The notes under the pieces were generated by a model. That model made no database searches and was not told the origin of the DNA. It saw nothing but the letters and a program-made list of their open reading frames with translations. Source: Methylobacterium nodulans ORS 2060 (GTDB taxonomy: Bacteria > Pseudomonadota > Alphaproteobacteria > Rhizobiales > Beijerinckiaceae). From it: a stretch of DNA of 64,000 nt. The DNA is taken from NCBI RefSeq assembly GCF_000022085.1, contig NC_011894.1, forward strand, positions 4,827,001-4,891,000. Reading direction: 5' to 3'. The position numbers and the translations under genes are program-made. Positions 51,630-55,711 of the stretch are shown piece by piece. Each line of letters opens with the position of its first letter. Positions within the stretch are counted from its first letter, which is position 1.

Positions 51630-51774
51630 GGGGAACCCCTCTCCCGTGCGGGAGAGGGGCAGGGGTGAGGGACCTCAGGCTTCAGCAAGTATCCTGAACC
51701 GTCCCGCTGCCAGCACCACGCTCAGTGATTCATGGCGGCACGGTCCGGGACCCTCACCCCTACCCCTCTCCCGC
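51630..51774. repeat. Family A palindrome copy 2, left part, split by an IS481-type element
   Basis: Matches 1110 onwards closely, including the loop sequence (TTCAGCAAGTATCCTGAACC), then breaks inside CTCTCCCGC. The rest of the right arm resumes at 55690 as CCCGCACGGGAGAGGGG. CCCGC (51770-51774 and 55690-55694) is present on both sides, so it is a 5-bp target duplication. Removing 51775-55694 restores an intact palindrome. Confidence 0.85.
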
Positions 51775-51795
51775 TGTACGGACCGGAGACAAGGG

Positions 51796-52128
51796 TTACA
51801 GGTGTTCGGAGACATGGGTGACAGGTTGCACCCTGAGTGTTGGCTGTGTCAGGTCGATCTGCCCCACCCTGTGGGTGATGAACACAAGGTCGACCCGACC
51901 ATCGGTCTGAGTGGGCCGCAGGGCCAGCGGCTGGCCGACGAACGCCTTGGGCACTCGCACGAGCTGGCCGCGCACGCTGATCCAGCCGTCCCGCTGCACG
52001 CGCCGCACCTGATCGGTCGGATCGTACTCGATCGCCGGCAGCTCGGCCGGATAAGCGCGCCGGCTGATCTGGTAGCGGCTGGCCGGCACCGCCAAGCCTA
52101 AGGCCTCGTGCGGGCGCTCGCTGTTGTA
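51796..52128 (-). pseudogene. IS481 transposase, C-terminal fragment
   Basis: About 110 codons beginning at LYNSERPHEALGLAVPASRY, which continues the core domain, and ending inside the left terminal repeat at the TAA at 51796-51798. The N-terminal fragment at 54774 ends at FRLIYN. The LYNSERPHEAL motif follows the third catalytic residue in this family. The joined protein would have about 390 residues. Confidence 0.85.
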
Positions 52129-52178
52129 CAACCTCTCACCACAAGACCCATAGTACCGGCGCGGGCGACGAGGTCGTC

Positions 52179-52480
52179 GTGGTCTACGCGTGGCACCCGT
52201 GGGCCGGGCGCGCCGTCTGCGTCCACGAGGTGATCGAGCGCACGACCGGCGCGGCGGCGCGCTGCTCGCTCGCGGACGCGCCCATCGTCCGCCCTCAGGA
52301 ACTCCCGGTCTGGATGCTCGATCCCGTTGCGTGCCGCACGATGCAGGCGACGGCGCAGCCGGTCGCGGCCATGTCCGCGCTGATGAGCTTGCACGCCCTC
52401 CTCGCCGCTGCGACGGGCGGCCAGCACCGCGCCCCGAGCCGAGCCCGGCTAGCATCGCCCGAGTCCCCGGGAGATCGTCA
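52179..52480 (+). CDS. Small accessory protein of the serine-recombinase element
   Basis: From the GTG at 52179 the frame reads VVYAWHPWAGRAVCVHEVIERTTGAAARC, then RPQELPVWMLDPVAC and a helix MSALMSLHALLAAA. Small proteins with a YAWHPW...VHE opening and ELPxWMxD are, as I recall, encoded beside recombinases in rhizobial genomes (a DUF5372-like role). About 100 codons look meaningful; the frame stays open further (to 52694) in low-complexity sequence over the next gene. The start is uncertain and may lie upstream. Function unknown. Confidence 0.55.
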
Positions 52481-52701
52481 TGCCTCATCCTCCGCGCCGA
52501 CCGCGCCGGTCGGACCCGCAACTCGAACTCGGTTTAACGAGCGGGCCATCGACCCCGACAGCGCCGCCGGCCTGAGGCGACCTGCCGGAGGCGACCCAGC
52601 AGACCCTCACCCGTCTCCTGACCCACCTGCTCGTCGCGCACGCCCGCGGCGCCGATCCGCAGCCGGGCGCCCGAGCCGGAGGCAGCCCCGATGAGCGCTG
52701 A
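52480..52701 (+). pseudogene. Small accessory gene of the element with an in-frame stop
   Basis: From the ATG at 52480 the frame reads MPHPPRRPRRSDPQLELGL and meets a TGA at 52573-52575, then continues [25 protein letters not shown] to a TGA at 52699. The helix after the stop resembles the short protein that commonly precedes this type of recombinase. The recombinase start at 52691 overlaps its end by 11 bases, a normal coupled arrangement. One base change would restore 73 codons. Confidence 0.6.
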
Positions 52702-54749
52702 GAAGATCGGCCCGCAGCACCGGGCCCGCAAAGCCGTGCTCTACGTCCGCCAGTCCTCGGCGCATCAGGTCCAGCACAACCGTGAGAGCCAGGCGCTGCA
52801 GTACGCCATGCGCGAGCGGCTTGCGGGGCTCGGCTTTGCTGAGATCGAGGTGATCGACGAGGACCTCGGCTGCTCGGCCGCCGGCGGGACGCCCCGCGCC
52901 GGCTTCGAGCGCATGGTCGCCGAGGTGTGCCTGGGCAAGGTCGGCGCGGTCGCCGCCCGTGAGGTCTCGCGCTTTGCCCGCAACAGCCGCGACTGGCAGC
53001 AGCTCGTGGAGATGTGCCGCGTCGTCGATACCCTGCTTGTTGATCAGGAGACGATCTACGCGCCTCGCCTCGGCAACGACCGCCTGCTCCTGGGGCTCAA
53101 GGGCAGCCTCAACGAGTACGAGCTCGACCTTCTGCGCCAGCGCTCGCTGGCGGCGCGCTACGAGAAGGCCCACCGCGGCGAGCTCGTGGTCGCGGCCCCC
53201 GTGGGCTTCATCAAGGTCGGAGCCCGGCTCGAGATGGATCCTGATCGGCGCGTGCAGGCGGCGATCCGGCTTGCCATCGACAAGGTGGCCGAACTCGGCA
53301 GCGTGCGTCAGGCGCTGCTCTGGTTCCTGGAGCACGGGCTCGATCTGCCGACCCGCGTCAACGCCGGTCCGGTCGTCTGGCGCCGCCCCCGCTACTCGAC
53401 GCTTCGCGCGTTCATTGCCAATCCCGCCTATGGCGGCGCCTACGCCTACGGTCGCAGCCGCGTCACCGCCAGCTACGACGCGGCCGGAGCCAAGGCGCGG
53501 GCGCGGCGCACGCCTCGTTCGGAATGGCTGGCGTTGAAGCCTGGCGCGCATGAAGGTTACGTGGCGTGGGAGCGGGCGGAGGCGATCCGGGCGATGGTGA
53601 GCGAGAACGTCCCGGCAAGTTCCCGCGGCGCGCCCAAGCTCGGCGCGGCGCTGCTCTCGGGGCTGCGGCCGCTGCGGGCGCAAGCTGAACGTGCAGTACA
53701 CGGGGGCCAAGGGACAGATCCCGCGCTACGCCTGCGTGCGCGGGCGGATCGACTACGGCGAGCCGAACTGCATCGCCTTTGGGGGCCTGCGCGTCGACGA
53801 CGTGGTGGAGTCAGCGCTCCTGTCTGTCGTGCAGCCGGCCGCGGTTGAGGCGGCGCGAGCGGCCGAGGCACAGGCGAACACGCGGCGCGACGAGGCCCGC
53901 GCGGCCATGGTGCGCGACCTGGAGGCGGCACGCTTCGCGGCCGACCGCGCCTTCCGGCAGTACGATGCCGCTGATCCCGAGAACCGCCTGGTGACCGGCG
54001 AACTCGAGGCGCGTTGGAACCGGGCTCTGGCCCGAGTGGGCGCTTGCGAGGCGCGCATCGCCGAGCACGAAGCGGCCACTCCGCGGCCCGCCCTCGCTCC
54101 TGCGGCGCTCGAGACGCTGGCCGCGGACCTGCGCGGTATCTGGTCGGCACCGACAACGGATGCCCGGCTCAAGAAGCGGATCGTGCGCACTGTCCTCCAC
54201 GAGGCCGTTGCTGACCTCGACGAGGCGCGGGCCGAGATCGTGCTGACGCTGCACTGGGTGGGCGGCGCCCACACCGAGCACCGCCTGCCACGCCGCCGGC
54301 GCGGCCAGCGCACCAGCACGCCCGCCGACGTGGTTGAGGCCGTGCGCGCGCTGGCGCTGATCGCGCGTGACGACGTGATCGCGGGCGTGCTCAATCGCAA
54401 CGGCGTGAGGACAGGGCACGGCAACCGCTTCACGCGCGAGCGCGTCACGGCGCTGCGCTCGCACTACCGCATTCCGGTGTTCCGCGCGGGCGCAGAGGGA
54501 GAGGAGCCCTGGCTGAACCTGAGCCAGGCAGCCGCCCTCGTCGGGGTGGCCGCGCGCACGCTTCGTCTGGCGGCGGAACGGGGCGAGGTCGATGCGGTGC
54601 ATCCTCTCGCAGACGGACCCTGGGTGTTCAGCCGAGCCGCTCTCGACAGCCCGGCCGCCCGGGCCCTCGCGCAGGGGACGCTGAACCGCAGCAAACACCC
54701 CGCGGTACCGGATCCGGCGCAGCAAAGCCTCTTCGCATCAACAGCATAG
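52691..54749 (+). pseudogene. Large serine recombinase, frameshifted at the zinc-ribbon domain
   Basis: Catalytic domain with nucleophile Ser in [17 protein letters not shown] and the [36 protein letters not shown] and R-rich helix; then the recombinase domain ([24 protein letters not shown]). At about 53663-53667 the frame changes from LLSGL to [17 protein letters not shown] first CxxC of the zinc ribbon is lost, so this is a small deletion rather than a programmed shift. The C-terminal part has a coiled coil (about 53840-54080) and ends with an added MerR/excisionase-like helix-turn-helix (WLNLSQAAALVGVAARTLRLAAERGEV). Intact length would be near 690 residues. Confidence 0.85.
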
Positions 54750-54773
54750 CGAGATGTGCGTTCTGATGAGCAA

Positions 54774-55621
54774 TTGTAGATCAGCCGGAAGCGATCGAAC
54801 GCCCGCTGGCAGGCCGCCAGGCTGGCGTAGAACGCGCCATGCAGCACGTCGCGCTTGAGGGTGCGATGGAAGCGCTCGTCCTTGCCGTTGGTCTGCGGAT
54901 GGTAGGGCCGGCTGTGGCTGATGTGGATGCCCAGCCGCAGCAGCCACACGGTGAGAGGCGTGTAGCGCTGGCCCGGTCCGTTGCCCCAGGGGCTGCCGTT
55001 GTCCAGGTTGATCCGCTCGGGCAGGCCGTAGCGCCGGAACGTGGCACTCAGCTGCCCCTGCACGGTCGCGGTGACCTCGTCGGCACAGGCCGCCAGGCAG
55101 AGCGCGTAGCGGCTGTGGTCGTCCAGCACGGTGAGAGGGTGGCAGCGGCCGCCGGCATGGGCGAAGTGGCCCTTGAAGTCCATCTGCCAGAGAGCGTTGG
55201 GCCGGGGGTGCTCGAAGCGGGTGAACGGGATGCTGGGGGCATCGGGTTGGCCCAGCCGGGCGTGGCGCGCCAGCACGGCGGTGATCGTCGAGGCGGCCGG
55301 GACCACCTCCTGGCCCTGATCCTGCAGCCGTCGGCGCAGCTTGCGCCCACCCCAACTCGGATGAGCCGTGCGCAGTTCCAGCACCGCCTCCTCCATCTCG
55401 GGGGACGTGCGGGCCGGGCTGGCGTGCGGGCGCCGCGAGCGGTCGTCCAAGCCCGCGCCACTCCGCGCCCGGCCCAGCCACTTGTAGCCAGTCTTGCGGC
55501 TGATCCCGAAGCGGCGGCACAGCGCCGCCACGTTCGCCGCCTCCTGCTGGGCCAGACCCACGAACTCGGCGCGGTTGTCTATGACTGACACCTCTTGCCA
55601 AGGCACGACACGCTCCCGCAT
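54774..55621 (-). pseudogene. IS481 transposase, N-terminal fragment
   Basis: About 282 codons from the ATG at 55621. N-terminal helix-turn-helix (VAALCRRFGISRKTGYKWLGR), then the rve integrase core with the first Asp in WQMDFKGHF, the second in INLDNGSPWGN and Glu in QTNGKDERFHRTLK. The genuine sequence ends at FRLIYN, where the serine-recombinase element enters; residues beyond that belong to the insert. It is separated from its C-terminal 110 codons by 2,650 bp. Confidence 0.88.
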
Positions 55622-55689
55622 CGATTGCTCTTGGCCATTGTGTCACCCATGTCTCCGAACACCTGTAACCCTTGTCTCCGGTCTATACA

Positions 55690-55711
55690 CCCGCACGGGA
55701 GAGGGGATCCC
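55690..55711. repeat. Family A palindrome copy 2, right remainder
   Basis: CCCGCACGGGAGAGGGGATCCC resumes the arm interrupted at 51774, with one change (A for T) in the usual GGGGTTCCC. It begins with the second copy of the CCCGC target duplication. Confidence 0.8.

Follow-up and report, generated by a model that had tools for sequence, protein, structure and literature searches.

Three nested insertions in Methylobacterium nodulans and a serine-recombinase clade whose attachment site very probably encodes a transposase motif

How does one mobile element come to lie inside the gene that moves another, and what does it recognize there? The question is raised by a 64,000-nucleotide stretch of the Methylobacterium nodulans ORS 2060 genome (NC_011894.1, positions 4,827,001 to 4,891,000; hereafter the window, whose own numbering is used below), in which a palindrome is split by an insertion sequence (IS) of the IS481 family, and the transposase gene of this IS is split by a small element carrying a large serine recombinase. 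Our analysis indicates with high probability that the locus is the product of three nested site-specific insertions, and that the host attachment site of the clade to which the innermost element belongs is the DNA encoding the YN..RPH motif of transposases.

We used the region as a query against the organism's own genome (8,839,022 bases in eight contigs, the window lying on contig C7) and scored 40 of the 701 first-look candidates. The IS481 element was found in at least five places: the window, a second nested copy at 379 kb of C7 (L031 in our numbering of loci), and three uninterrupted copies at 1,610 kb, 137 kb and 7,343 kb of C7, each 1,265 bp long, two of them identical and the third with one base difference. 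By comparison with these, the interrupted form in the window extends over 3,915 bp (51775-55689), and cutting out 52129-54778 leaves exactly 1,265 bp with 49-bp terminal repeats, as a first-pass annotation of this DNA had proposed. The natural uninterrupted copies encode a 391-amino-acid transposase, in which the insertion point of the inner element corresponds to Tyr-Asn at about residues 281-282. The 2,650-bp size difference is placed between two copies of TTGTA (52124-52128 and 54774-54778), a sequence that is single in the empty site and present once at each end of the occupied one. On the minus strand of the window, the N-terminal part of the transposase (54774-55621), containing a helix-turn-helix (HTH) and the rve catalytic core, is cut at Tyr-Asn in ..FRLIYNSERPHEALG.., and the C-terminal part (51796-52128), recognized from its translated open reading frame (ORF) and from the empty copies, starts ..N-SERPHEAL. 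The former piece matched the model NF033577 (transpos_IS481) with E 4e-74 and 249.7 bits against a cut-off of 224, and the element thus belongs to the IS481 family.

The inner element (52129-54778, plus strand, 2,650 bp) also exists without IS481. At 121 kb of contig C5 (L032) we observed a copy identical to that of the window over 2,658 bases, and the removal of the element from this locus gave an open stretch of 316 residues of the IS3 type, ..ALARYIDGFYNPVRRHSALDYVSPAQF.., which is again cut at Tyr-Asn. The two targets in this genome, IS481 ..LIYN/SERPHEAL and IS3-type ..DGFYN/PVRRHSAL (the slash marks the cut), are different transposases cut at homologous codons, soon after the catalytic core. 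The insertion of the inner element is not random; it is site-specific for a conserved transposase motif. Chance or an assembly artefact as the origin of the nest is excluded, the empty, nested and IS-free forms all being present in one genome. The order of events read by the first-pass annotation (palindrome, then IS481, then recombinase element) is borne out in that each layer was found without the next, and the 3.9-kb unit is accompanied by three separate copies of the 1.27-kb form and one IS-free copy of the inner element.

The sequence of the inner element is identical in all three copies of this genome, and a single base (54874, in the IS) separates the second nested copy from the window across 51693-55714, beyond which the two diverge. 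How this second copy arose is a question of its own. The interrupted IS481 might have been transposed in trans into another palindrome, a route for which the ends are intact and CCCGC is present on both sides in both nested copies, and for which the three intact IS481 copies could have supplied the transposase. On the other hand, the identity runs 82 bp to the left and 25 bp to the right into the palindrome before divergence, and among 22 palindrome segments compared without gaps (231 pairs) one pair was identical over 82 bp and eight pairs had 80 or more. Because of this flank identity and the rarity of identical pairs, an origin by gene conversion or by recombination among the palindromes is no less likely, and we regard transposition in trans as a somewhat doubtful account of this copy.

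To return to the attachment site of the inner element, the same position recurs far beyond this genome. Recombinase relatives at E 1e-20 or better were detected in 26 of 248 genomes of the same family, and a scan of genome contigs confirmed at least 579 relatives, 80 of whose loci were examined. A TTGTA-like core followed the recombinase stop in 51 of the 80; six from other clades were dropped, leaving 45 of the window type. In 38 of these 45 the YN frame stayed open for 40 amino acids or more, with Pfam matches to rve_3 in 34 and to rve in 21 of the 38, and NCBIfam matches to IS3 models in 33 and to IS481 models in 30, the models overlapping; the remaining seven, with short frames, were judged by eye or by the left half. 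The left ends of the elements begin TTGTACAAC, and the flank, where found, reads N..RPH..L in register. Most elements measured 2.61-2.69 kb, the exceptions being L132 (2.3 kb), L138 (2.9 kb), L122 and L137 (5.3 kb each) and L135 (7.0 kb). The three longest apparently contain a further insertion, a fourth layer; tandem arrays were considered as the cause of their length and set aside, no internal core having been found.

Both transposase halves were found in register at 29 loci, the left halves being chosen by motif and two of the sites (L099 and L107) having a stop in or near the joint. The consensus of these sites, TG.GG.CG-N7-TTGTA, corresponds in reverse to the codons for RPH and YN, with the TG.GG.CG arm at -15 to -8. 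Because the consensus encodes these codons, the transposase has little freedom to alter this DNA. TAC served as the last Tyr codon in 37 of the 38 YN frames, and the other Tyr codons of the same stretches were TAC in 83 cases and TAT in 47, a difference that we do not rely on, since the junction patterns exclude TTATA. A control stretch 3 kb downstream, taken at 23 loci and yielding 92 peptides, gave no rve match and only single matches to other mobile-element families.

The distribution of the targets on a tree of 102 recombinases (quick method, LG+G4, with a long-branch warning elsewhere in the tree) points in the same direction. The window clade comprises 57 of the 102, the window counted, and in 48 of the 57 one or both transposase halves are cut at YN, 44 of them being labelled as such and four recognized from the left half only (L073, L075, L113 and L100). 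The YN label required one change on the tree (support 100), compared with a mean of 26.7 after shuffling; all ten target labels together required 10 changes (the minimum being 9), against a shuffled mean of 34.1, and a value as low occurred in none of 200 shufflings. TTGTA lay 24, 25 or 36 bases (once 7) past the stop at 43 of the 48 clade loci checked, and was mutated or not found at the rest. A separate plasmid sample, consisting of 14 records fetched of 40 listed, from 479 plasmid records with a relative, had TTGTA after the stop in 14/14 and at least one transposase half in 14/14. The right half was read by eye as an rve transposase in 13 of these and matched Pfam rve_3 in 11, and the left end was TTGTACAA in 12, all 12 reading N..R.H. 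A profile made from 13 right halves of this sample gave right-flank matches for 35 of 55 clade members, always on the expected minus strand, and for 0 of 42 recombinases in other clades; among the 20 misses are the exceptions, broken cases, and short or left-side-only cases.

Several points weigh against reading the YN..RPH codons as the attachment site. Four of the 57 clade junctions (L074, L093, L121 and L125) do not lie in such a transposase, and another five clade members (L072, L076, L080, L110 and L142) are not judgeable, their recombinase end being broken or lacking. The YN labels were assigned by the analyst, and the profile alone confirms 35 of 55. The junctions were found with TTGTA-like patterns, and a fixed core is to this extent built in. 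Lastly, the recombinase of the window is frame-broken, so that this copy may no longer act alone. As a separate observation, the four exceptions all have TTGTAC after the recombinase end, resembling the element's own left end.

The four junctions outside a recognized transposase would also fit a looser preference, in which the recombinase needs only a short TTGTA-like core, insertions into essential genes are purged, and transposase genes, where insertions are presumably harmless, are what survives. Such survival bias predicts a scatter along transposase genes and intergenic DNA, whereas what is observed is one recurrent codon pair together with a further conserved arm (TG.GG.CG), and the control stretches gave 0 rve matches in 92 peptides; we consider this account unlikely. 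The weakest alternative, that the element is a passenger inherited with these IS and owes its common position to descent and not to target choice, could appeal to target pairs that are the same IS across species (L120 and L130, identical over the compared stretch) or common to one assembly (L135 and L160), but it is very improbable given the occurrence of both IS481 and IS3-type targets in the present genome, the uninterrupted forms, the widely varying transposase halves next to constant element ends at the 29 two-sided sites, and the identical or near-identical recombinases in different transposases of one assembly (window/L032, L096/L137 and L104/L160).

The attachment at YN..RPH codons thus remains the preferred explanation for the window clade, and the sister clades use other motifs of transposition genes. 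Their right flanks were labelled as IstB ending at Walker A in 15 cases, IS66 TnpC at FAGSD in 8 or at VERAIRP in 3, and TnpB in 4, together with single cases of further mobile-element genes. A Pfam check of 91 peptides from 32 loci (3 of the 35 loci were skipped) returned 14 matches to IstB_IS21, 3 to DDE_Tnp_IS66, 3 to rve_3, 2 to rve and 1 to TnpB_IS66, and also one each to the non-transposition families chlorophyllase-like, PETase and PAF-AH. The remaining names (IS1380, tyrosine recombinase LGHS, the serine recombinase at L162 and TnpC VERAIRP) were given by eye, some from characteristic motifs. On the tree, the GSD site of IS66 TnpC required one change and the IstB Walker A site six, that is, the IstB users do not form one clade. 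Among 38 recombinases, left halves were recognized as IstB in four (L144, L148, L157 and L165) and as IS66 TnpC near the junction in two (L081 and L151). By eye, the right flank of L162 apparently places a sister-clade member inside another serine recombinase gene near ASRLARN, and at L079 and L169 the sister-clade recombinase is followed by an apparent tyrosine recombinase cut at LGHS.

The recombinase itself belongs to the large serine recombinases. Its N-terminal frame (52691-53848, plus strand) contains the Resolvase and Recombinase domains, and five of five relatives examined have the zinc ribbon; the remainder (53691-54749, plus strand), with the rest of the zinc ribbon, a coiled region and the C-terminal part, lies in another frame and gave no Pfam match as a piece. 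The frame break falls at the start of the zinc ribbon and is present in all three copies of this genome. The annotation had placed the decay of the recombinase as the final step at this locus, an order that is not supported: being common to identical copies in two target genes, the break must be older than the spread of these copies, unless they were homogenised. The nearest solved structures by profile were those of the SPbeta integrase YokA (PDB 9dxh; 9dxd is a YokA-YotN fusion; residues 64-527, E 2e-18), and a profile match to the catalytic domain of TnpX (2mhc) was also obtained. In three of the five relatives examined the protein ends in an HTH_17-like domain, a difference from YokA, which is a phage integrase. 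ORF1 of the inner element (52125-52691, plus strand), open from the left end with 189 codons to the stop and an approximate end, has the motif YxWHPWxGRxVxVH...PxWM, which is shared by the relatives. It had no Pfam match at E 1, and an assignment to DUF5372 was accordingly not borne out.

The outer layers show a second kind of site specificity. The IS481 element ends in TGT..ACA, TGT ends being typical of the family, and its 49-bp inverted repeats lie at 51775-51823 and 55641-55689, the right one with two mismatches to the left. All five copies found lie at the apex of the same hairpin, CCTCTCCCG(CA)CGGGAGAGG, and four of the five have a 5-bp duplication. Both nested copies and L033 have CCCGC on either side; L035 has GCGGG on both, which is the same site in the opposite orientation. 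The uninterrupted copy L034 (C7:136.8-138.1 kb) has CCCGC/GCGGG flanks without a simple duplication, as if two oppositely oriented copies had recombined. In the window, the left part of the palindrome (51630-51774, family A of the first-pass annotation, with dispersed matches in the genome) ends in the apex half-hairpin and one CCCGC (51770-51774), and the second CCCGC (55690-55694) is followed by the right half of the split hairpin (up to 55714). As had been predicted, removing the IS with one CCCGC restores the hairpin CCTCTCCCGCACGGGAGAGG, a 20-mer with 104 genomic occurrences (searched as the reverse complement), against 0 for the reversed-pattern control. The IS481 element here is site-specific for the hairpin apex of a dispersed palindrome. 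DNA of this element was found at E<=1e-20 in four of the 248 genomes of the family, the own genome counted.

Of the two short duplications that the annotation had described as clean, the one flanking IS481 stands; TTGTA at the inner element was rejected as a target duplication and is better read, from the class of the enzyme, as a recombinase core shared by two attachment sites. The palindrome itself looks mosaic from the differences between its copies, since at window position 51662 a short self-complementary module some 15 bases long (GCGATCGAAGATCGC-like) distinguishes the window from the second nested copy at the same place. An IS110-family element (50433-51596) adjoins the palindrome and has five near-identical copies in the genome (three on C7, one on C5 and one on C1); the C7 copies match about 13 bases further to the right than those on C5 and C1, and these C7 copies may sit at palindrome ends. 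The arrangement of IS481 resembles that of IS targeting repetitive extragenic palindromes (REPs), the copies all occupying the same position within a dispersed palindrome and short duplications accompanying the insertion; the families listed in the text of Tobes and Pareja 2006 (PMC1525189) are IS3, IS110, IS4, IS256 and IS5, and IS481 has 0 occurrences in that text. The palindrome here is longer, each repeat unit being well over 100 bases with 104 exact apex hairpins in the genome, compared with the 21-65 bases that the paper gives for REPs. Members of the family formed by REPs and bacterial interspersed mosaic elements (BIMEs) are short, extragenic and associated with RAYT genes.

As to the inner element, transposons of the TnpX/TndX type (Tn4451 and Tn5397) are likewise moved by large serine recombinases and lack terminal inverted repeats, in line with the 2mhc match; they are multi-target and carry other cargo. 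Full-text searching in an open-access library revealed no description of serine-recombinase elements that target transposases, subscription papers lying outside that search. The recombinases of Durrant et al. 2022 (PMC10083194), clusters of which target a magnesium chelatase gene, a prolyl isomerase gene and competence genes, share the Resolvase-Recombinase-zinc-ribbon layout and a single conserved intragenic site, as far as the main-text passages describe them. The present family differs from them in that the target is a motif close to the catalytic core of transposases, the element is about 2.6 kb, and several of its clades use motifs in different transposition genes; transposase genes are not named as a target class in those main-text passages. 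New relative to the known conserved-site large serine recombinases would be the use of transposase genes as target.

From these observations, the history of the locus can be proposed as follows. A genome bearing a dispersed palindrome with hairpins at its ends would have been entered by an IS481-family element that targets the hairpin apex and duplicates the 5 bp CCCGC. A self-contained element of about 2.65 kb, consisting of the large serine recombinase and the conserved ORF1, would then have inserted into the transposase gene, at the codons of the YN..RPH motif directly past the rve catalytic core, just as other members of its clade land in IS3, IS481 and similar transposase genes and the sister clades use other transposition-gene motifs. 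Judging from the enzyme class, the presumed reaction is a conservative recombination of a circular element into the site, and the TTGTA footprint matches the trace left by an enzyme of this class once a circle has been integrated at a chromosomal site. Since the interrupted IS keeps both ends, the transposase of an intact IS481 may move it together with its passenger.

It is possible, though we would not yet call it probable, that the inner element represents a widespread family of small large-serine-recombinase transposons that evolved to read conserved transposition-gene motifs of other mobile elements, the interrupted IS, with its ends preserved, carrying the parasite along when it is moved in trans. 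The motifs would be, equally tentatively, YN..RPH of rve transposases and, in the sister clades, the Walker A of IstB, IS66 TnpC, TnpB and others. Any IS with the motif would then be a target, because the codons read by the recombinase are ones that the victim transposase is not free to change.

To avoid harm, mobile elements commonly insert into intergenic DNA or tRNA genes. The inner element looks specialised for life inside other mobile elements, with relatives in many bacteria at the same transposase motif, and the family appears to use other mobile elements as landing sites that are at once safe and mobile, chosen through a motif that those cannot lose. If this is true, transposon hyperparasitism would become directly testable, many of the broken IS copies in rhizobia and other bacteria would be accounted for, and the family would be a source of large serine recombinases with a known consensus of the bacterial attachment site (attB), along with sister clades of switched specificity.

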